Shown: piece after piece, positions 6,564 to 59,509 of the stretch | How the letters are laid out: every line of letters starts with the position of its first letter | Position numbering within the stretch: position 1 is the first letter of the stretch | Origin: Flavobacterium alkalisoli | GTDB lineage: Bacteria; Bacteroidota; Bacteroidia; Flavobacteriales; Flavobacteriaceae | DNA length: 64,000 nucleotides | Reading direction: 5' to 3' | NCBI RefSeq assembly: GCF_008000935.1 | Contig: NZ_CP042831.1 | Coordinates: 3,534,001 to 3,598,000 of the forward strand | Notes under the pieces: model-generated | What the model was told of the DNA's origin: nothing | Databases searched by the model: none | The model's input: only the letters and a program-made list of their open reading frames with translations | Made by a program: the position numbers and the translations under genes

Positions 6564-9179
6564 CTAAAATTTAAAATTATATGATACACTGGGAATAATG
6601 CCAAAGATGGAGAGGCGTGTGGCCTGATTCATACCGGTGTCTTCATTGGTACCAAACTGTATGGAGGCTGCATTTTTACGGGCATACACATTATAGATAC
6701 TAAATACCCAGTAACTTTGCCACCCTCTTTGTTTATCTGGTTTTGGGGTGTAGGTTGCTGCCAGGTCGAGGTGGTGATAAGCAGGCAATCTGTTTTGGTT
6801 TCTCGCAGGGAAATTAGGTACGTGTATATTTCCAAACTCATAGTATCCGTCGGGGAAAGTGACCGGTCTTCCGGACTGTAAGGTAAAATTCGCACTAAAT
6901 GACCATTTAGGACTCCACTCATAATTCCCTGTAATATTTAGGTTGTGCAACTTATCATAGGGTGATAAATACCACTCCCCATTAGCTATCCCCGGTTCTT
7001 CAGGGGTTCTGCCGGAGGTTTTCTGTTCTGCTTTTGACAGCGTGTAAGCTAGCCATCCGGTCAGCCTGCCGGTATTTTTGCGCAATAGGAGCTCAAGTCC
7101 ATACGACCTTGCCTTACCATTTAGAATCACCCTTTCCATATTATTGTTTCCCAGTATATCAGCACCGTCAATATAATCAACACGATTACGTATTGTCTTG
7201 TAAAACACTTCTGTTTCAAGAGAATATTCCTTATTCTTAAAATTTCGGAAATAACCTAGCGCATATTGATCCAGTAACTGCGGCTCTATAAACGGACCGC
7301 TGGGGGTCCAGATATTCATTGGCAATGGCGACTGCGTATTGGTAAGGATATGAATATACTGTGCCATACGGTTGTAACTGGCCTTAAGAGAGTTATCGTC
7401 ACTTAGAATATAAGACAGGGAAGCACGTGGCTCGAAATTTTCAAAGCCGGCAATCTTTTCACCCCTGCCATAAGATACCGATCCCGTAGGTACAGCTTCC
7501 TGATAAATATCATACAGTGGGTTATACACAACCGCCTTATTGTCTGCATAAGTACTGATTTCCTCAGCCCCATAGCGATAGAACATACTGTAACGAAAAC
7601 CATAACGCAGATTTAACTTTTCGGTTATCTTATGTTCGATATCAAGATAAGCCGCGGGCTCTAAGGCATATTTTTTATCTAACTGCTGGAAATTGAAACT
7701 GGAATCACCTCCCTCCGGTTTTAGGGTTCCCGGATTGAAATCATAATAGGTAGCCTCCACCCCGTAGTTCAGATTGAATTTTTCCGACAGCCTTTGCTGC
7801 CAGTTGTACTTCAGTCCATAGGTCTTGACGGCACTATCCCAGTTAAAATTTTCAGAAGCGATGGAAAGGTTGAATTTATAATCGCTGTAATACAGTGATA
7901 ATCGTGTATCGATAGCCTCCGAAAGCTTATAATTCCAATATATATTGCCCATTGTATTACCGTAGGTGCTTGCAAACCTGTTTCCAATATCAAAGACATC
8001 ATTACCAAGATAGCCTGAAAAATGAAGGCTGCTTTTTTTCCCTACTTTGTAATTGAATCTACCGTTAAGATCATAAAAGCTGGCAGAATTGCTATTGTTA
8101 GCTAATTTTAAAAAGAGGTGGGCATAAGAGGCCCGCCCTGCCAGCATAAAAGAGCCCAGGTCTTTTTTTACCGGTCCCTCTACCATAAGCCTACTGGATA
8201 TAAGACCTATCCCCCCATTGACTTTCAGGCTATCACCACGTCCCTGCTGCTGGTGTACATCTAAAACCGAGGATACCCGCCCTCCAAAAGCCGCCGGAAT
8301 ACCTCCCTTGTATAGGTCAAGGCTCTTTACTGCATCGGCATTGAAAACGGAAAAGAAGCCAAACATGTGCGAATCATTATAGATGGGAGCACCATCCAGC
8401 AAAACTAAGTTCTGGTCCGCTGCCCCGCCCCTCACGTTAAAACCTGAGGACCCCTCCCCGGCGTTAGTAACACCCGGAAGTGTCATAAGTGATTTTATTG
8501 GATCCGGCTCGCCCATAGCAGCAGGTATACGCTTAATCTCCTGCATAGTAAGGCTGTTGATACTCATTTGCGGCTTTCGGATATCTGTAGCCTTATTGTT
8601 TTGGGTGATTACTACTTCCTTCAAATTTTGCATGTCCTCTTCCAAAGTAAAATTCGAAGAGGTATTCCCGGATACCCTTAAAGTCCTCTCAATGTTTTTA
8701 AACCCCAGGTACTGAACAATAATTGTGTAACTTCCTGAGGGTAGCCGTAATATGTATTTACCATTAACATCAGTACTTACGGCAGCCTGTGTTTCTCTGA
8801 TATAGATAGTAGCTCCCGGTAAGGGCCCGCCCGAAACATCTGTAATAGTACCGGTTAAAGTATAATTTTGACTACTCTCGTAATTTGAATGCTGCTTTAC
8901 TGTAATATTATTTCCAATTACAGTAAAATGTAAGGGCAATTGTTTTTCCATACGGGTAAGTAGTTCCTGTACGGTTACGTTTTGTAAACGCAAAGGTTCC
9001 TTCAAATAACGCTGGTCGGTATTGATCTGGTCGGTAAAGGCAAACTTATAGTCTGTCTGTGCCTCTATCTGGTTGAATATTTCCTTTAAGGTAGCTGTTT
9101 GATCCAAAGAAAGGCTTACCTCCTGTGCAAACAGACTTAGGCTTAATACTAAAAAGCATGATGAAAAAATATGCTTCAT
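6564..9179 (-). CDS. TonB-dependent outer-membrane receptor with STN and carboxypeptidase-like domains
   Basis: 871 residues. In order: signal peptide (residues ~1-18), STN domain (~19-95; DQTATLKEIFNQIEAQTDYKF), carboxypeptidase-D regulatory-like domain (~105-190; TGTITDVSGGPLPGATIYIR), plug (~200-310; GFNVRGGAADQNLVLLDGAPI), then a beta-barrel ending in YNFKF. The STN domain is the part that signals to a FecR anti-sigma factor, and FecR and sigma genes lie directly upstream, so this is a transducing importer like FecA. The substrate is not evident. Complete. Confidence 0.93.
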   Translation of the reverse strand: MKHIFSSCFLVLSLSLFAQEVSLSLDQTATLKEIFNQIEAQTDYKFAFTDQINTDQRYLKEPLRLQNVTVQELLTRMEKQLPLHFTVIGNNITVKQHSNYESSQNYTLTGTITDVSGGPLPGATIYIRETQAAVSTDVNGKYILRLPSGSYTIIVQYLGFKNIERTLRVSGNTSSNFTLEEDMQNLKEVVITQNNKATDIRKPQMSINSLTMQEIKRIPAAMGEPDPIKSLMTLPGVTNAGEGSSGFNVRGGAADQNLVLLDGAPIYNDSHMFGFFSVFNADAVKSLDLYKGGIPAAFGGRVSSVLDVHQQQGRGDSLKVNGGIGLISSRLMVEGPVKKDLGSFMLAGRASYAHLFLKLANNSNSASFYDLNGRFNYKVGKKSSLHFSGYLGNDVFDIGNRFASTYGNTMGNIYWNYKLSEAIDTRLSLYYSDYKFNLSIASENFNWDSAVKTYGLKYNWQQRLSEKFNLNYGVEATYYDFNPGTLKPEGGDSSFNFQQLDKKYALEPAAYLDIEHKITEKLNLRYGFRYSMFYRYGAEEISTYADNKAVVYNPLYDIYQEAVPTGSVSYGRGEKIAGFENFEPRASLSYILSDDNSLKASYNRMAQYIHILTNTQSPLPMNIWTPSGPFIEPQLLDQYALGYFRNFKNKEYSLETEVFYKTIRNRVDYIDGADILGNNNMERVILNGKARSYGLELLLRKNTGRLTGWLAYTLSKAEQKTSGRTPEEPGIANGEWYLSPYDKLHNLNITGNYEWSPKWSFSANFTLQSGRPVTFPDGYYEFGNIHVPNFPARNQNRLPAYHHLDLAATYTPKPDKQRGWQSYWVFSIYNVYARKNAASIQFGTNEDTGMNQATRLSIFGIIPSVSYNFKF

Positions 9180-51080: not shown

Positions 51081-51106
51081 AGGTTATAAATGAGGTTCAA
51101 AGTTAG

Positions 51107-51133
51107 CAAAAAAAAGAGGCCTAAGCCTCTCTT
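51107..51133 (-). terminator. Terminator of the early operon
   Basis: On the minus strand GAGAGGC-TTAG-GCCTCTT is followed by eight T residues, after the FtsK-gamma-like gene. Confidence 0.8.
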
Positions 51134-51152
51134 TATCTATTATGGATTTACT

Positions 51153-53356: not shown

Positions 53357-53582
53357 CCGGAAATAGTTTAGTTTGATTGTTCTCTGCTTCTTTAAGCTTT
53401 TTTAGTTCCCTTTCGGCAGGTATGCCCAGGTACTCGTCAAAAGTGCGTTTAGAGATGTGGTAATGAGGCAGGATGTACGTTTTGTAGATGTGTACATTAG
53501 TCATACCAAGCGACTGACAGTCTTTTGTAAGGTTCTGTATCTCTATAATGCGGGTGTAATAGTTTTTCTTGTTATAGGCCAC
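53346..53582 (-). CDS. Small early protein, unknown
   Basis: 78 residues: KNYYTRIIEIQNLTKDCQSL, YHISKRTFDEYLGIPAERE; looks like a small helix-turn-helix. Starts one base before the GemA-like stop. Possible DNA-binding regulator. Confidence 0.55.
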   Translation of the reverse strand: MAYNKKNYYTRIIEIQNLTKDCQSLGMTNVHIYKTYILPHYHISKRTFDEYLGIPAERELKKLKEAENNQTKLFPDEE

Positions 53583-54046
53583 TAATTAAAGTTAGGTTTA
53601 GGAAGCCCTTTAGAGTGGAAATAAGCCTTTGTCCCGGCTTTTGCCGCCGAACGGCTATAATTACTCTCTATGCCTCTAAACTGCTTTACAAGGCGCTCTA
53701 ATTCGTCAAGCTCATACTCGTTCAGTCGCTTTTTGAGTATGCTGCTGTTTAACATGAAGCGGTTAAACACTTTCCAGTCGTTTGGATTGTGTATCCCGGT
53801 TCTTTGAGCGATGGTTAATACTTCACTTCTTAACTTCCTTTTGGCAAGCTCCGTGTTTGCATCAAGGTTAGTCCTATATCTGTAATCGTTGTCGAGCTTT
53901 TCGCACAGCTCGTCGATTTCAATACTTAACAAATCCTTACTGCTTTGGGTTCTGCCGGAAGTCCATGCATAAATTAGCTCATGGCGTTGCTTTTCGTCAA
54001 TGCCATACTTGCTAAAGAGGGTCATTAGTTTTCTTGTTGTTGCCAT
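53582..54046 (-). CDS. GemA-like (DUF1018) regulatory protein
   Basis: 154 residues. KLMTLFSKYGIDEKQRHELIYAWT, then TGIHNPNDWKVFNRFMLNSS and LNEYELDELERLVKQFRGIE follow the pattern of Mu gp16/GemA, which changes host gene expression and supercoiling. Preceded 18 bp upstream by tRNA-like element E1. Confidence 0.6.
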   Translation of the reverse strand: MATTRKLMTLFSKYGIDEKQRHELIYAWTSGRTQSSKDLLSIEIDELCEKLDNDYRYRTNLDANTELAKRKLRSEVLTIAQRTGIHNPNDWKVFNRFMLNSSILKKRLNEYELDELERLVKQFRGIESNYSRSAAKAGTKAYFHSKGLPKPNFN

Positions 54047-54064
54047 GATTTACATAATTTATTA

Positions 54065-54106
54065 GCTCCGCTCCCGGTCTCGAACCGGGATGAGTGCCAC
54101 TGCGGA
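54065..54106 (-). other. tRNA-like element E1
   Basis: Minus strand: TCCGC/GCGGA acceptor-like stem, a mini hairpin AGT-GGC-ACT, and a perfect T-arm CCCGG-TTCGAGA-CCGGG. No anticodon arm. It fills the gap between a stop (54,110) and the next start (54,046). Confidence 0.6.
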
Positions 54107-54109
54107 TTG

Positions 54110-54364
54110 TTACTTACTTAATTCTGTTTGAACAATTAAGCGATTAGCGATGTAATTAAAATCAAGAGGATCTATTTCCTCTTCTGTAAACTTGATGTAA
54201 ATGTGTTGTGGAGCGCTTGTTGCTAACACGCGAATGAAATCACTCATGTTGTCGCCCTCTCTTAGTTCATCTAACCCTATATAATTTTCACTCTCTTCAT
54301 CAAATAGGGTTTGAAGTGCCGACAACACCTTACCTGCGTACTTAATTTGTTTTTCTATGTTCAT
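54110..54364 (-). CDS. Small acidic early protein, unknown
   Basis: 84 residues: IEKQIKYAGKVLSALQTLFDE, NYIGLDELREGDNMSDFIRV and HIYIKFTEEEIDPLDFNYI. No family recognised. Lies between tRNA-like elements E2 and E1. Confidence 0.6.
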   Translation of the reverse strand: MNIEKQIKYAGKVLSALQTLFDEESENYIGLDELREGDNMSDFIRVLATSAPQHIYIKFTEEEIDPLDFNYIANRLIVQTELSK

Positions 54365-54382
54365 TTTTAGTATTTAAATTTG

Positions 54383-54438
54383 TTCCCTGAGCGGGATTCG
54401 AACTCGCAGTAAAAGGCATTCCAATTTGCCTTCAGGGA
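54383..54438 (-). other. tRNA-like element E2
   Basis: 56 nt, minus strand: acceptor TCCCTGA/TCAGGGA (7 bp), D-arm-like AGGC with loop AAATTGGAAT, then T-arm GCGAG-TTCGAAT-CCCGC, discriminator A. No anticodon arm. It ends 18 bases before the start at 54,364. Confidence 0.72.
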
Positions 54439-54453
54439 TAACCAACTACCTAA

Positions 54454-54627
54454 CTAATCATACTTTTCTGCAATGTCTACAGCTATTGTAAGTAATAAAG
54501 CTGCGACAAAAGGCATCCAAATTGGGCTAAGAACCCAACCCCAGTTCCAGTCAATTAGCTCTGTTAATTTTAGAGCGATGAACAGTACCTGTATTACTGT
54601 CCAGAGTTTAAATTTGCTTTTTTCCAT
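54454..54627 (-). CDS. Small membrane protein
   Basis: 57 residues from the ATG at 54,627: KLWTVIQVLFIALKLTELID, then WNWGWVLSPIWMPFVAALLL. Two membrane segments. Similar tiny membrane proteins occur in many phages; function unknown. Confidence 0.65.
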   Translation of the reverse strand: MEKSKFKLWTVIQVLFIALKLTELIDWNWGWVLSPIWMPFVAALLLTIAVDIAEKYD

Positions 54628-54650
54628 ATCTATGATTGTTTTAAAATTTG

Positions 54651-54768
54651 CTCCCTGAGCGGGACTCGAACCCGCACGTACCTCCTCCTTTAGGATTACA
54701 AAGGATTTACACCTTTCGTTGCACTCGCCCTCTCGTGGGCTATCGTCTACCAATTTCGACATCAGGGA
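54651..54768 (-). other. tRNA-like element E3 (118 nt)
   Basis: Same acceptor (TCCCTGA/TCAGGGA), D-arm TCG-AAATTGGTAGA-CGA resembling tRNA-Leu, and T-arm GCGGG-TTCGAGT-CCCGC. Between them lie 60-70 extra bases with hairpins GCCC-ACGAGA-GGGC and AAAGG-TGTAAAT-CCTTT. The loop lacks U33, so no isotype is assigned. Ends 23 bases before the 54,627 start. Confidence 0.68.
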
Positions 54769-54821
54769 AAACCAACTAACCAATTTTCCTTTTGTTCCGA
54801 TATGTCAATGAACTTTATTTG

Positions 54822-54877
54822 CTCCCTGAGCAGGACTCGAACCCGCAGTAAAAGGCATTCCAATTCGCCTTCAGGGA
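54822..54877 (-). other. tRNA-like element E4
   Basis: 56 nt, close copy of E2 (loop GAATTGGAAT; T-arm GCGGG-TTCGAGT-CCTGC). It stands 53 bases upstream of E3, a tandem pair after the DUF3164 gene. E2, E3 and E4 share the leader GTTGGTT before the acceptor. Confidence 0.7.
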
Positions 54878-54905
54878 TAACCAACTAACCAAATAAACAC
54901 ACTAC

Positions 54906-55625
54906 TTATAAGCTCGAAAACTGTACGTTTATATCCTGCCACTTTCCGTTTTCATCAACCGCATAAGCTCGGCAGTAAGTTGATGAGCCTGTAACTCGCT
55001 GACAGTCTACAAGCTTATCAAACTCCTCTATCAGGGCGGCATCACCTAAGTCATTTACCTGCTTGCGGGCTTTGGTTAGGAGCTTGGCATCGTAATCGCC
55101 TTTTGAGTTCTTCATCAGGATGCCGTCCAGAAGGTTGTAAAAGCCCTTATTCCTGTCCTGAAACTTCGCCCTGAATATGTCTCGTATAGAGTTAATATGA
55201 ACAATTGCCTCCTCTGTGAACTCAAAGCGTTCCTGACGCTCTACCTGCACCTTCATTTTGCCGTCATCACTTTTAAAAGTGAAAGTGTTTTGCTCCTTCA
55301 GCTCTTTACCGTTAACCTCAAACATCTTTTTAAACAGCTCGTTTGCCTGAGTGATAGTGTCAGCCTTTAGCTTGACAAGCAGCTCACTTGCTGCCCTGAA
55401 CTGGCTCACAGTGTCACTAATAAATTTTTCCTTTTGTTTCTCAAAAGCTGCCTTTTTAGCTTTGTTCTCGGCATCCTTTTGCTCCTTACGATAGGCAAGT
55501 ATGCGCTCAAGCTCTGCATCGCTTAATCCTTCAATGTCAATAGGCTTGTTTGTTAACCCTTGCTGAATCTGAGAACCTACCGTTTCAGCTCTGTTTACCT
55601 CAATATCTTCTACCTTTGTTTTCAT
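54906..55625 (-). CDS. DUF3164 family early protein
   Basis: 239 residues. A helical, charged centre (AENKAKKAAFEKQKEKFISD), then EAIVHINSIRDIFRAKFQDRN and VNDLGDAALIEEFDKLVDCQR, with GKWQDINVQF at the end. This is the DUF3164 pattern of Mu-like early regions. Function unknown. Confidence 0.72.
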   Translation of the reverse strand: MKTKVEDIEVNRAETVGSQIQQGLTNKPIDIEGLSDAELERILAYRKEQKDAENKAKKAAFEKQKEKFISDTVSQFRAASELLVKLKADTITQANELFKKMFEVNGKELKEQNTFTFKSDDGKMKVQVERQERFEFTEEAIVHINSIRDIFRAKFQDRNKGFYNLLDGILMKNSKGDYDAKLLTKARKQVNDLGDAALIEEFDKLVDCQRVTGSSTYCRAYAVDENGKWQDINVQFSSL

Positions 55626-55797
55626 GTTATTTCTAATTGTATGTTGTAATTAAATTTTGTTTTTAACTCGTTTAAATACCTGTTGGTTTGCTCATCGTTA
55701 TAAGGCACATTACTGTCCTTTTGTTGGGGTCATAGCGATAAAGTTTCTTTATCCTTTGGTGCAGCTTATACCTTCGGTTTTGCTGAGCGGCTGTCAT
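55622..55797 (-). pseudogene. Small early gene with a minus-1 frame break
   Basis: Zero frame starts at 55,797 in an ATGA overlap with the previous stop (QQNRRYKLHQRIKKLYRYDP). After NK the matching continuation lies in the minus-1 frame (KDSNVPYNDEQTNRYLNELK) and ends in an ATGA overlap with the next gene (55,622-55,625). So one ~58-residue gene is split at CAAAAGG (~55,729). Either a real frameshift, a sequencing error or programmed slippage. Confidence 0.55.
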
Positions 55798-56102
55798 ACC
55801 TTAATTTTTCGAAGTCCGCTGTTTTCCAAATCCATAAGCTTGTTTACATGGTAGTCACGGGACTGCTTGTTAAGCCTGTAATCATGTGTACCTTCGGGGT
55901 TCGCTAAAAGCCATTCATTAAGCTTGGCTATTTTTCTCTCAAGTTGGTCGGCATTCATTTCCATTGGTTGGCGTTTTTGTTGGTTAATTCTGTCGTACAT
56001 TCTCTGAGCTATAGCTCCGGCAATACTTAACACTGGTTTTCCTGACGGCGTGGTTAAGATTAAGTGCCTCTTTTCCGGGTTGTAGATGTAGTTTGCTGTC
56101 AT
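55794..56102 (-). CDS. Phage early protein, unknown
   Basis: 102 residues: YNPEKRHLILTTPSGKPVLSI, IAQRMYDRINQQKRQPMEMN and LERKIAKLNEWLLANPEGTH. Likely partly coiled-coil. Two bases after the MuB-like stop. No family recognised. Confidence 0.55.
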   Translation of the reverse strand: MTANYIYNPEKRHLILTTPSGKPVLSIAGAIAQRMYDRINQQKRQPMEMNADQLERKIAKLNEWLLANPEGTHDYRLNKQSRDYHVNKLMDLENSGLRKIKV

Positions 56103-56104
56103 AA

Positions 56105-57016
56105 CTAAGCTTTTTGGGTTATTAACTCTCTTTTTATTACTCGCTTAACCCTTCTCATGTCCTGTACAACCTGTAAGATTTGCTTTTGACCTTCCTGTCC
56201 TATAGTCACAGGCAAAGGGTTACATTCTTTAAATATCTTTTGTGCTTTAGTTTTGTCGTGTATGCCGTTAGCCTGACATATCATTTCGATATCTTTAGCT
56301 GTAGAACCTATAAGGGTTACATAGTTTCGGCCAAAGCGGCTGTCTATCTCGTCATAGCCTTTAGAGTTAAGCCTTACGCCGTTTTTAATCTCTTTTTTAA
56401 GGTTCTCAGTGCCACATATTACAAGCCCCACCTTATCTTCAAGCTCATTAAAAAACGGTATCAGGTAACGAAGTGCCGGAGCTTTAAGCTTGTCGGCCTC
56501 ATCTATGATTAAAAGAGGCTTTTCAAAGGCTCTCTCATTAAAGAAGTTGATTATTTTAGCACCTAACTTGTAAACCGATACTGCGCCTCTTGGTATCTCT
56601 ATCCCAAGACTTGTAGTCAGTTCTGTTAAAAACTCACGTTTTGCCCATTCGTTTGCCTTTATTCTGTACACGCCCGGCATAGTTTTTACAAATACCTCAA
56701 TAGCGGCAGATTTACCCGCTCCGGCTTTTTCTGATATTGGTATAAACAGGCTTTGTTCTTTAGCGTCGTTTAATACTGTCCAGATGGTTTTAAAGTTGGT
56801 AGTTTCGGCAATTTGCCAACCTGAGAAAACTACATTTAATCGGCCTGCGACCTTCATCCACATTTCAGGCTTAATAAGGTTCCAGTTACCGTTTATCATA
56901 TTGGAGATTGTCGCATTTGACACATCGCATTTAACAGATACTTTGTTCCCGCTTCCTAATGCTGTTATTTCACGGTTTATGGCTGTTACAATCTCGCTTT
57001 TTTGTACATTTGTCAT
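56105..57016 (-). CDS. MuB-like AAA+ ATPase, transposition target protein
   Basis: 303 residues. N-terminal helix-turn-helix (KCDVSNATISNMINGNW), Walker A in SEKAGAGKSAA (~105), Walker B in PLLIIDEADKL (~165), a sensor region (GLVICGTENLKKEI) and a C-terminal domain. As in Mu, it follows the transposase gene. It would select target DNA and stimulate the transposase. Confidence 0.88.
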   Translation of the reverse strand: MTNVQKSEIVTAINREITALGSGNKVSVKCDVSNATISNMINGNWNLIKPEMWMKVAGRLNVVFSGWQIAETTNFKTIWTVLNDAKEQSLFIPISEKAGAGKSAAIEVFVKTMPGVYRIKANEWAKREFLTELTTSLGIEIPRGAVSVYKLGAKIINFFNERAFEKPLLIIDEADKLKAPALRYLIPFFNELEDKVGLVICGTENLKKEIKNGVRLNSKGYDEIDSRFGRNYVTLIGSTAKDIEMICQANGIHDKTKAQKIFKECNPLPVTIGQEGQKQILQVVQDMRRVKRVIKRELITQKA

Positions 57017-57034
57017 GGTTTACTTGAGTTTTGG

Positions 57035-59125
57035 TTAATATTGATTTTTAGTAAAGGAATTAATATCGATCTCGTGGCTGTTGGTTGTATTGTAAGTGCT
57101 GCCAACAGCTTTTTTTATACCTTCGTTTTCTATTTGTGCTGATTGAAGCAGTAGAGCTGTCTCCGCTCTTTCGGCATCCTGTTTGTTTGTAAAGCGTCCC
57201 ATAATCAGGCTCACATCATCATATCCGGTTTTCTCCTCAAGTTCTGCCTGTTTTCGGGCTTCAATATCTGCAAGCCTTTGTTTTGCCTCTGCAAGCTTAT
57301 TGTATTCGGCTTGAGGGCCGTAAAGTTGTGGTTTGCTGAACTCCTGAGCTTCGCCAAGATGCACAAGGAAAGCCCCTTTTGATTTGAACAGGTACACGAA
57401 GCTTAAATCTTCCATGTCGTAACTGATTATTACCTCTGCCTCGTTGCTCATTACCTCATAATCCACTTGGTAAATGCGCTCTGTTTTCTGAATTTCTGTC
57501 TTAATAAACCCATTACGGATTTGAAGTTTCTTTTTAAGACCGAAAATCATTGAGATTTGATAGTTTTCTAACCATTGTACGTGAGGTTTTTCACTCTCAT
57601 CATGCATTAGCTTAGGTGTTTTATTCAAATCTTTATTCTTGCGGGAGTAGTAAGAGTATGGAGTGGTTCTGTAAGCCTCTACAATACCCTCAGCCTCGTT
57701 ATATGCTGCGGCAAGGTCAAACCCGGCCTTATTGCTTTCTTTTTCAAGTTGGGACAGGTACTCAGGGCTGCGGTGTGCGTGCGTCCTTCTTGATTTGATA
57801 CCCTCACCGTAATAGTATTGGCTGTCCATCATAAATACTGACTGTAAGGTTCCGAACCAACGCTCAAGTGATGCCTTTGCATTTGCATTGTGCGCAATGG
57901 TAACTTTTACAGCCATTTGCTCTAATGAGCTTATAAGTCTTTTGGCCTCATCGGTATTGTGTCCCGGAAAACGGTCAAATACTAACTCGTAAGGAAGATA
58001 CCCGGCAGACTGAACCGCCATTTTAAGGGCATTTATAACGCTCCAACGGTTCTCGCTATAGTCAAAGCAATAACCAAGTACATCGCCGCTGTGAACATCT
58101 CTTACAGCTACTATGTAAAGGAACTTTTTAGCTCCGTCATCTGCCTTGTGTGATATGATGTTAACACGGGTAGCATCTACCTGCCAACAATCTCCCGCAA
58201 AAAGTGCGTTTTGTAGTGGTACATAGCCCTCATAAATAGAGGCTTTTGTAGTACCCTTACCAAACCTTTGAGAAGCGGTAAGGAACTTTGTATTATGCTG
58301 CTCGTAAATGTTTTGGCCAAACCACCTGCGTGAAGGCACTTTCTTACCAAGCAGGCGGCACATATCCTGTATTTTTCTTGTTTTAAAGTCGTTTGAATAG
58401 TTTTGCCCCATTGCTGTAAGCTGCATAGCCCAAGACAGAACCTCCGGGTCGTTGTACTCAAGAGCGTTGGTGTTCCCGGCACGTGGTAGCTGTATCACTT
58501 CTGCAATAGCTGCTCCTGTCTCGGTTACTTCGGCAATCTTTTCTTTAAGTATCCTGTAATTTTTAGGAAGGTAGCGCAGCTCGTGTTTTTCAATAAGGTC
58601 AGCAAGAATCTTGTAACCTTCATTAGCTGTCCTGAACTCGTTTTCCTGAATATAGGTAATACAGAACTCAAGAACCGTACAAGCTTTGGCAAGTGCCTTT
58701 TGTTGTTCTTTAGTACAATCTATATAGCAATGCAAAAAGTCTTTTTCATTAGCCTTTATATAGCCTTTAAAATAGCTTTCAAGTAATTGATTATCCTGTT
58801 GAGCTTCAAAATTCTTAAAGCTCTCTACAAGGTCATTCTTATCTCCAAACAAATCTCTGTAAAACTTAGGGCTTCTGTTTGGCAGATAGTCAATATCATA
58901 ATAGAACTGGCTGTTAATTTTTGCCCATCTCCAACTTTTACCGGAGGCAGGCAAAATATTAAAGCGTTGGTAGCAGTTTTGAACCGTCTTTCTATAAACA
59001 CTGCGAACCTTCCATAAATACTCTGTAGTAACTCCACAAACTTCAACGACTAAACGCTCATTAAGCCAAACAGTTTGGCCATCTGAGGTTTTTCTTAAAA
59101 GTATGTCGTTTGGTTTGAAGTTCAT
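57035..59125 (-). CDS. Mu-type DDE transposase
   Basis: About 696 residues from the ATG at 59,125; the longer frame would translate element E5. The N-terminal part is DNA-binding. The catalytic core has the DDE acids in WQVDATR, VFDRFPGHN and ASLERWFGTLQ. A Mu-like C-terminal beta-barrel and tail interact with the ATPase. It catalyses replicative and integrative transposition of the prophage. Preceded by E5. Confidence 0.9.
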   Translation of the reverse strand: MNFKPNDILLRKTSDGQTVWLNERLVVEVCGVTTEYLWKVRSVYRKTVQNCYQRFNILPASGKSWRWAKINSQFYYDIDYLPNRSPKFYRDLFGDKNDLVESFKNFEAQQDNQLLESYFKGYIKANEKDFLHCYIDCTKEQQKALAKACTVLEFCITYIQENEFRTANEGYKILADLIEKHELRYLPKNYRILKEKIAEVTETGAAIAEVIQLPRAGNTNALEYNDPEVLSWAMQLTAMGQNYSNDFKTRKIQDMCRLLGKKVPSRRWFGQNIYEQHNTKFLTASQRFGKGTTKASIYEGYVPLQNALFAGDCWQVDATRVNIISHKADDGAKKFLYIVAVRDVHSGDVLGYCFDYSENRWSVINALKMAVQSAGYLPYELVFDRFPGHNTDEAKRLISSLEQMAVKVTIAHNANAKASLERWFGTLQSVFMMDSQYYYGEGIKSRRTHAHRSPEYLSQLEKESNKAGFDLAAAYNEAEGIVEAYRTTPYSYYSRKNKDLNKTPKLMHDESEKPHVQWLENYQISMIFGLKKKLQIRNGFIKTEIQKTERIYQVDYEVMSNEAEVIISYDMEDLSFVYLFKSKGAFLVHLGEAQEFSKPQLYGPQAEYNKLAEAKQRLADIEARKQAELEEKTGYDDVSLIMGRFTNKQDAERAETALLLQSAQIENEGIKKAVGSTYNTTNSHEIDINSFTKNQY

Positions 59126-59152
59126 TTTACTGTTACTGGTTCTAATTGGTTG

Positions 59153-59194
59153 CTCCCGGAGTGGACTCGAACCACTCTGTAGGCCTTTCGGGAA
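59153..59194 (-). other. tRNA-like element E5
   Basis: 42 nt, minus strand: acceptor TTCCCG/CGGGAG (6 bp, one wobble) stacked directly on a 6-bp T-arm GAGTGG-TTCGAGT-CCACTC: 12 bp in total. No D or anticodon arm. It ends 27 bases before the transposase start. Confidence 0.62.
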
Positions 59195-59236: not shown

Positions 59237-59509
59237 ATGGATGATAACCTCACCTTTAGGGAGGATAAAATGTTTAATTATTTGTTCTCAAAAATTCTCG
59301 CTTTACAAACCGACCTATTTTTACAGGAGCAGATAATAAAAGCTTTAGCCACTCAGATAACCGGAAAGGAAGCAATCGGGAAGGTTTTGTTTGACGAGGC
59401 TGCAAAGCAGAAAGAAGCCGTTTTTGCAAATCTGACCGAGACTTTAATAAATGAGCTGAAGTCAGAGTCTGAGGAATTTGGCTCTTACTTAGAAGGTCTT
59501 TTACGTTAA
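59237..59509 (+). CDS. Small phage protein antisense to the early transcript
   Basis: 90 residues, helical: FNYLFSKILALQTDLFLQEQ, ALATQITGKEAIGKVLFDEA and LINELKSESEEFGSYLEGLL. Its strand is opposite to the early operon that crosses it. It converges with the Ner-like gene (4-bp overlap). May be read in the lysogen to oppose early transcription. Confidence 0.6.
   Translation: MDDNLTFREDKMFNYLFSKILALQTDLFLQEQIIKALATQITGKEAIGKVLFDEAAKQKEAVFANLTETLINELKSESEEFGSYLEGLLR

Follow-up and report, generated by a model that had tools for sequence, protein, structure and literature searches.

In the punctuation model of mitochondrial gene expression, tRNAs mark the boundaries between the genes of a polycistronic RNA and are excised by nucleases (PMC8601606, available text). 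mascRNA and menRNA, within MALAT1 and MEN-beta respectively, are reduced tRNA mimics that RNase P and RNase Z cleave within a long RNA; two D-loop guanines and the T-loop make up an elbow, which has been proposed to recruit both enzymes to mascRNA (PMC11693755, available text). Bacterial RNase P reads the length of the T-arm/acceptor stack together with an RCCA end; it also acts on bacterial mRNAs (that of T4 gene 32 and a polycistronic mRNA) and on the C4 RNA of phages P1 and P7 (PMC11143913, available text).

The window (the whole stretch of 64,000 nt that was analysed) includes the early operon of a Mu-like phage on its minus strand. The operon is interspersed with five elements, E1–E5, that appear to mimic the upper half of a tRNA molecule; the features read by RNase P and RNase Z are apparently retained, and the parts needed for decoding dropped. 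Starting from the 5′ end of the operon the features are:

59153..59193, minus strand: E5, minimal element with 11 bp, a TTCGAGT loop and a GG-holding linker AAAGGCCTACA
57035..59125, minus strand: MuA-like transposase (rve core; phrog_310), the first gene past E5
56105..57016, minus strand: MuB-like AAA transposition protein (phrog_296), preceded by no element
54906..55625, minus strand: DUF3164 gene, directly upstream of E4
54822..54877, minus strand: E4, with a D-like arm and no anticodon arm
54651..54768, minus strand: E3, a 118-nt long form with a T-arm, a D-like arm and several internal hairpins
54454..54627, minus strand: 57-aa accessory ORF (phrog_1374), between E3 and E2
54383..54438, minus strand: E2, with a D-like arm and no anticodon arm
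54110..54364, minus strand: 84-aa accessory ORF (phrog_37916, weak), between E2 and E1
54066..54106 (up to the discriminator-like base), minus strand: E1, minimal element with 11 bp, a TTCGAGA loop and a GG-holding linker AGTGGCACTCA
53582..54046, minus strand: 154-aa conserved early gene (phrog_14123), past E1
51106..51149, no strand assigned: hairpin flanked by A/T runs, where sub-threshold Rfam matches correspond to a hairpin with a T run

The last of these is likely a two-way terminator closing the early operon. All five elements were located on the minus strand where the earlier note had placed them, and four stand within the 18–27 nt ahead of a start codon that it had claimed, the next ATG lying 27 nt from E5, 23 nt from E3, 18 nt from E2 and 19 nt from E1. 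E4 has no start codon directly 3′ and is followed by E3, the acceptor of which is identical to that of E4 and the T-arm similar. The gap from the upstream stop is 28 nt for E4 (that of the DUF3164 gene), 15 nt for E2 and 3 nt for E1. The D-like arms of E2 and E4 both carry TTGG, as described earlier. A 12-bp helix had also been ascribed to each of E2–E5; that of E2 has one A.C mismatch, and E5 has 11 bp in the family register, as does E1.

ARAGORN calls no tRNA anywhere in the window, and the anticodon arm is absent from E1, E2, E4 and E5, which bears out the view that the elements are non-decoding. With the Rfam tRNA model RF00005, E2 scores 30.2 bits, just over the gathering score of 29, and E4 25.2 bits, below it; E1, E3 and E5 give no match at E ≤ 10. 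True tRNA genes are rejected on the basis of ARAGORN, these scores and the missing anticodon arm. Folded singly, the elements are only moderately better than shuffled sequences (z from −0.7 to −2.6), which is weak evidence by itself.

The core form is 40–44 nt in length, and comprises an acceptor/T-arm helix of 11–12 bp, a T-loop of the TTCGANN type and a short linker. Like the mitochondrial marks, the elements are tRNA-shaped, are encoded on the mRNA strand and stand at the junctions between genes of a polycistronic RNA; unlike them, they are not genuine tRNAs. In organelles real tRNAs double as cut sites, whereas the marks of the phage early operon would be dedicated top halves, lacking the decoding parts in their core form, and their cutting is something we infer. 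The elbow of two D-loop guanines and T-loop is probably shared with mascRNA and menRNA, and the 11–12 bp stack, T-loop and two elbow guanines of such a substrate are all present. The human RNAs differ in that they are non-coding and have, besides a small D arm, a region resembling an anticodon stem; the phage elements keep to 40–44 nt and occur in many copies at gene junctions. T4 gene 32 and C4 RNA are parallels in that an mRNA or a phage RNA is the target of host RNase P. To our knowledge these targets, and the polycistronic mRNA, are single sites of varied shape, with no repeated family of tRNA top halves.

E1–E5 are evidently members of a large family of phage RNA elements. The survey set comprised 68 loci of Mu-like (transposable) phages, mostly IMG/VR contigs, the named relatives being from Bacteroidota, and the scanner found 128 elements in 49 of the loci. 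For these elements the earlier note had proposed a role in RNA processing, end protection or translational control. Relatives lacking the elements, or pairs that are not conserved, had been expected to speak against the proposal, and the outcome is for the most part favourable to it: many relatives have them, but 19 of the 68 loci are without a scanner match (three of the 19 do have covariance-model matches), and on that count a feature of all relatives is rejected. A general feature of Mu-like phages is rejected also, Mu, D3112 and B3 having neither a scanner match nor a full-length model match. In the earlier locus set plus the window, distinct scanner matches at a score of at least 24 number 121 on the plus strand and eight on the minus strand. 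Of the eight, five are E1–E5, whose mRNA strand is the minus strand; L083 accounts for two, both tRNA-like genes, and L017 for the last, which has a linker of 4 nt. Nearly all matches are thus in the orientation of the mRNA. Block shuffles gave two scanner matches. The covariance-model search of related phages proposed in the earlier note, performed with a 23-row model, returned 118 full-length matches from 85 sources (the 23 model rows included), all 118 in the same orientation as the early genes and none inside an ARAGORN-called tRNA; the multi-genome searches score the best 15 candidates per genome, so that the counts are lower bounds. Chance hairpins are rejected by the strand bias of the scanner matches, set against the two in shuffles, and by the covariance-model matches. 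Across 33 loci of relatives ARAGORN identifies 10 tRNA genes, eight of them on the plus strand, and some loci carry longer, almost complete tRNA-like forms.

Two element patterns retrieved 19 new contigs, of which 13 match MuA, MuB or other early genes. The other six match no early gene; the scanner matches in L172, with long linkers, look spurious, and L174, L180, L181, L186 and L205 may represent short sequences or phages of another kind. Where the transposase similarity is only distant (five loci, L163–L167), there was no covariance-model match and a single scanner match above 24, in L165, with a linker of 55 nt. The family was not found in Rfam, and no earlier description was found in the open-access literature, which leaves most subscription papers uncovered.

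In F. cerinum (L004), the transposase of which is 78% identical to that in the window, the equivalent of E5 has a T-A to C-G change in the T-stem that keeps the pairing, and a degenerate element lies ahead of the 154-aa gene. A further close relative (L006) has no equivalent of E5 and carries a near-identical copy of E1; in the predicted folds of E1 and of this copy the T-loop is partly closed, which counts against processing.

Double changes keep the pairs across relatives, in agreement with the claim that the structure is selected. Over all 60 distinct minimal elements (those left once duplicates are removed) 656 of 660 helix cells are paired, compared with a shuffle maximum of 484, and covariation is 0.831 versus 0.156 shuffled for 23 sequences and 0.418 versus 0.113 for 31 sequences, each value being reached by 0 of 500 shuffles; these counts are partly selected because the scanner demanded pairing. 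Five measures were computed for the 23-sequence alignment (A4), and two are weaker, double-change pairs being reached by 7 of 500 shuffles and further pair types by 77 of 500. Alignments A4 and A5 draw on A3, which has 61 sequences, and contain 54 of them; L022:7120, L030:8369, L031:6433, L041:8409, L047:9697, L049:6864 and L053:7172 are omitted, and a T-stem pair is broken in L030:8369 and L031:6433. The 43 matches with longer linkers are outside the covariation counts.

Two conserved features were not scanner criteria. GG is found in the linker of all 60 minimal elements, and a C after the discriminator (C74) in 59 of the 60; C74 is present in 36 of the 37 where the register rule made no use of it, and C makes up 10.3% of the leader 3′ of the elements. 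The longer-linker matches have C74 in 37 of 43 and GG in the linker in 42 of 43. From its position, the linker GG probably plays a part like that of G18 and G19, the D-loop guanines of the tRNA elbow. CC after the discriminator occurs in none of the 60 minimal elements, in 23 of which (those with 11 bp) the register rule bars it.

The usual layout is a stop codon, a few bases, the element, ∼20 nt and a start codon. An ATG-initiated ORF of 30 codons begins 8–35 nt past 71 of 86 minimal elements (random sites 18.75%), and five of the 86 lie inside an ORF of at least 100 aa (random sites 58.7%). For 84 of the 86 there is an upstream stop, with a median gap of 3 nt and 58 of the 84 within −2 to 10. 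Elements are frequent ahead of the transposase and varied accessory genes, and almost never found ahead of MuB and five other early genes. This association with accessory genes, the linker GG and the host-type C74 are three points that the earlier note does not mention, and they strengthen its case. In all loci they precede 21 of 71 transposases and 8 of 50 154-aa genes, or 18 of 67 and 7 of 41 when the 11 loci fetched for the element pattern are omitted.

The 3′ end of the elements resembles that of host pre-tRNAs, with C74 and no CC. Of 46 Rfam matches in the host, 30 were used, and these represent 26 distinct tRNA genes; C74 is present in all 26, and 22 are without CC. A CC after the discriminator would hinder RNase Z. 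The host has both RNase Z (315.6 bits) and a type A RNase P RNA (189.7 bits).

The elements are probably punctuation marks in a polycistronic early mRNA, which the host enzymes RNase P and RNase Z would excise. RNase P would cut the 5′ border, just past the upstream stop, and the cut past N73 or C74 would fall to RNase Z or to a different enzyme that trims 3′ ends. Both cuts would release a short mini-RNA and leave the downstream gene with its own message and a leader of ∼20 nt, and neighbouring cistrons, often accessory, would be separated and insulated. A ribosome terminating at the abutting stop would occupy the 5′ strand, in competition with folding of the element. Several features count against cutting by RNase P. 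U1-A72 (54 of 60 minimal elements) and A at −1 (41 of 60) prevail, compared with G1-C72 and U at −1 in model substrates; several helices have 11 bp and not 12; and RNase P pairs with RCC where the elements offer R-C-A.

The constant order of stop, element, ∼20 nt and ATG would also be expected of an element that acts uncut, with a compact fold that blocks re-initiation or ribosome read-through and keeps the next start unpaired; cleavage is only what we infer, and the likeness to tRNA would then serve stable folding, or contact with the ribosome or a factor. Any hairpin would be enough for this, however, leaving the joint keeping of the T-loop, GG, 11–12 bp and host-type C74 unaccounted for, and we regard it as rather unlikely. 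It is improbable that the elements are sites where a tRNA-binding protein of host or phage controls the downstream genes or protects ends. Such proteins, for example the CCA-adding enzyme, TruB/TrmA and EF-Tu, do read features of the acceptor and T-arm, but several require a free 3′ end, which is absent in a long mRNA before cutting.

The neighbouring genes are diverse, with 135 downstream of elements falling into 59 families and 107 upstream into 57 (counts that include the 11 loci fetched for carrying the element pattern), and E1 precedes different genes in the window and in L006. Similarity is higher for elements of the same locus (0.87, 81 pairs) than for those of different loci (0.69, 3159 pairs). 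These observations would fit short homologies serving mainly for the swapping of accessory genes, with the structure incidental. That is very improbable, as the paired changes and the orientation with transcription of 118 out of 118 matches call for a reason at the level of RNA, as do GG and the T-loop, kept in unpaired stretches; gene swapping at the elements may be a by-product. The longer, almost complete forms could be taken as remnants of phage tRNA genes, decayed and functionless, but this is scarcely credible: decay would account neither for the pairing of 656 of 660 helix cells nor for convergence on a single short form in dozens of phages.

If the elements are indeed punctuation marks, a cut signal is separable from tRNA and reusable as a gene divider, which suggests how early operons take in new genes without upsetting their neighbours. 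They would add an RNA family missing from Rfam, and supply a natural insulator part for Bacteroidota. In RiboJ and Csy4 insulators, which are man-made in use, a cut element frees a gene from upstream sequence by means of a ribozyme or a CRISPR nuclease; the phage elements are natural and would depend on host enzymes. We suggest tentatively that Bacteroidota phages might possess a tRNA-free code, in which a portable, host-excised mini-tRNA of ∼42 nt allows almost any accessory gene to be independently processed, and which reaches a non-Mu phage (L161) and, at full size, hankyphage. On this reading the mini-RNAs, once released, might receive a CCA tail and function as small RNAs themselves.

The hankyphage ‘tRNA-Arg’ appears to be related to the phage elements, and it and other phage entries of this kind in databases may be something other than tRNAs. 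RNA-seq of hankyphage induction (jmh43::dcas9-repcHP) is described in PMC12135933. The ‘tRNA-Arg’ is located between the annotated third and fourth genes, 10 nt past the stop and ∼25 nt before the start, and has C after the discriminator, but differs in its full-size form. In hankyphage jmh72 ARAGORN no longer calls a tRNA, and the anticodon region, read by eye, is CTCCC-GCAA-GGGAG.

Between ~59.7 and 51.1 kb the minus strand looks like a transposable phage's early region, in a source genome of 3.99 Mb on a single contig. Following an S24-type repressor that runs in the opposite direction, the order is a small ORF, a MuA-like transposase (closest named relative Flavobacterium cerinum, 78%), a MuB-like AAA protein, DUF3164 and small genes. 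Five tRNA-like elements reported here in an earlier note are all confirmed at their positions:

59153-59193, minus strand: E5, short form
54822-54877, minus strand: E4, form with an extra hairpin
54651-54768, minus strand: E3, long form
54383-54438, minus strand: E2, form with an extra hairpin
54066-54106, minus strand: E1, short form

Four lie 18–27 nt before a start codon, as had been described; the exception is E4, which precedes E3. On the plus strand, a 90-aa ORF (59237-59509) faces the interval that separates the small early ORF from the transposase. By eye the arrangement seems similar in the F. cerinum locus (L004), and another relative (L006) has neither this ORF nor E5.

E1 and E5 are 41 nt in length up to the discriminator-like base, and are built from five outer pairs, an 11-nt linker, six inner pairs and a TTCGANN loop. 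E2 and E4 contain the additional D-like hairpin with TTGG claimed for them, while E3 is a 118-nt form with an acceptor identical to theirs. The leader common to E2, E3 and E4 (54439-54458, 54769-54788 and 54878-54897) ends TAGTTGGTTWTCCCTGA and is continuous with the acceptor; because they share it, the three are likely duplicates. ARAGORN called none of the five as a tRNA in the window, and E2 alone passed the Rfam tRNA cut-off.

E5 is present in L004, where one T-stem pair has gone from T-A to C-G without loss of pairing, and a degenerate element with a different acceptor, missed by our pattern scanner, lies ahead of the 154-aa gene. In L006 E1 precedes a different gene. Protein searches named relatives in Flavobacterium, Chryseobacterium, Riemerella, Elizabethkingia, Aquimarina and the like, and IMG/VR was scanned with transposase alignments (51 and 66 loci, in overlapping sets). 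The scanner, using only the T-loop and a 12-bp interrupted helix, gave 121 plus-strand and 8 minus-strand matches at a threshold score of 24, with 2 in block-shuffled sequences. Five of the minus-strand matches are E1–E5, two are tRNA-like genes and one is a match in L017 with a 4-nt linker. The two tRNA-like genes lie in a Mu-like contig (L083:7265-7415, minus strand), on the strand opposite the transposase. The 128 elements are spread over 49 of 68 loci; linkers are up to 12 nt in 86 (minimal elements), 13–30 nt in 12 and longer in 30, the last grading into nearly complete tRNA shapes. ARAGORN found 10 tRNA genes in the 33 loci examined, 8 on the plus strand.

Of the 660 helix cells in 60 distinct minimal elements, 656 are paired (shuffle maximum 484). 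Since pairing is what the scanner selects for, more weight falls on the background rate and on features outside that selection. GG is present in all 60 linkers, at positions 4–5 in 55. C74, the C following the discriminator-like base, is found in 59/60 and R-C-A in 55/60, the register rule for the 23 elements of 11 bp itself using R, then C, then not C; among the 37 whose rule did not use C74 it is present in 36. The leader downstream of the elements is only 10.3% C. On alignments of both 23 and 31 sequences the covariation score exceeds all 500 shuffles and every slid register, bearing out the proposal that the structure is under selection. Weaker measures on the smaller alignment were reached by 7/500 shuffles (double-changed pairs) and 77/500 (further pair types).

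An ORF with an ATG start and 30 or more codons begins 8–35 nt downstream of 71 of the 86 minimal elements (18.75% of random sites), and 5 of the 86 fall inside an ORF of 100 codons or more, compared with 58.7% of random sites. The upstream stop was identified for 84, with a median gap of 3 nt. An element lies ahead of 21/71 transposase orthologues (18/67 excluding loci fetched by element pattern), 1/71 MuB orthologues and 8/50 orthologues of the 154-aa gene (7/41 with the same exclusion). None precedes orthologues of the 102-aa (0/5), DUF3164 (0/8), 78-aa (0/37), 201-aa (0/12) or 147-aa (0/26) genes, and the genes downstream of 135 elements belong to 59 families. The genes marked are therefore the transposase and, mostly, accessory genes of varied kinds.

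The host encodes both RNase P and RNase Z. Its RNase P RNA contains a GGGUAGG segment, which we take, by E. coli RNase P RNA, to hold the GGU pairing with R73-C74-C75. Host tRNA genes resemble the elements at this end: among 26 distinct genes, taken from the 30 of 46 Rfam matches that were fetched, C74 is present in 26/26 and CC absent in 22/26; this may be a partial CCA or an RNase P contact. The sequence comparisons show the structure, strand, place and 3′ signature of the elements. What the elements retain is what the two enzymes measure (PMC4919913, PMC11143913, PMC11693755): the elbow, the 3′ end and the stack of acceptor on T-arm. In mascRNA the elbow is built from the T-loop and a pair of D-loop guanines and is a proposed recruiter of RNase P and RNase Z (PMC11693755); CCA is an RNase Z antideterminant (PMC4919913). 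An R-C-A end would keep two of the three RNase P RNA pairs and avoid the antideterminant. These retained features, the presence of both enzymes and the R-C-A end together point to excision. The elements would fold within the early mRNA and be cut out of it, leaving each downstream gene with a short leader, and this excision would affect expression. Punctuation by tRNAs is already a known kind, as is the action of RNase P on mRNAs; a repeated, non-decoding family of tRNA top halves at phage gene junctions was found neither in Rfam nor in the open-access literature searched (including PMC10367356, PMC12135933, PMC12710915 and PMC7761591).

The covariance-model search suggested in the earlier note, with a model from 23 sequences, gave 118 full-length matches in 85 sources, all on the early-gene strand (judged from ORFs in L161). 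No full-length match occurs in phages Mu, D3112 and B3, five distant-transposase loci or 18 host tRNA loci, these sets giving 8 partial T-arm matches at 14–17 bits. On the window's own genome the model returned E1 and E5, both included in it, and one 19.5-bit match (E 0.77). Shallow whole-genome searches, scoring the best 15 candidates per genome, found matches in at least 3 further genomes of 397 in the family, at least 4 of 395 in the order and at least 2 of 395 in the phylum. Searching by element pattern alone brought in 19 contigs; early-gene matches are present in 13 of them and absent from the other 6. The cultured phage fF4 has two elements.

In 17 hankyphage records a full-size form occupies the gap between the third and fourth annotated genes, and four of these records list a tRNA-Arg at that place. 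The layout (L120:1767-1850; L216:328-411; L215) is a stop, 10 nt, the element, ~25 nt and a start. In hankyphage jmh72 the anticodon region, CTCCC-GCAA-GGGAG, is by eye a hairpin whose loop is GCAA, and the element has lost its ARAGORN tRNA call. This 'tRNA-Arg' looks like a full-size relative of the elements and is probably non-decoding.

In 7 of 9 matched genomes the element lies within a stretch holding MuA and MuB homologues. The other two, G774 (a contig of 3.7 kb) and G023 (locus L161), gave no MuA or MuB homologue match; read by eye from its ORFs, the G023 region looks like the early region of another, non-Mu phage type. Its elements are at 6582 and 8002, and by eye the neighbouring ORFs are SSB-like, KilA/Ant-like and helicase-methylase.
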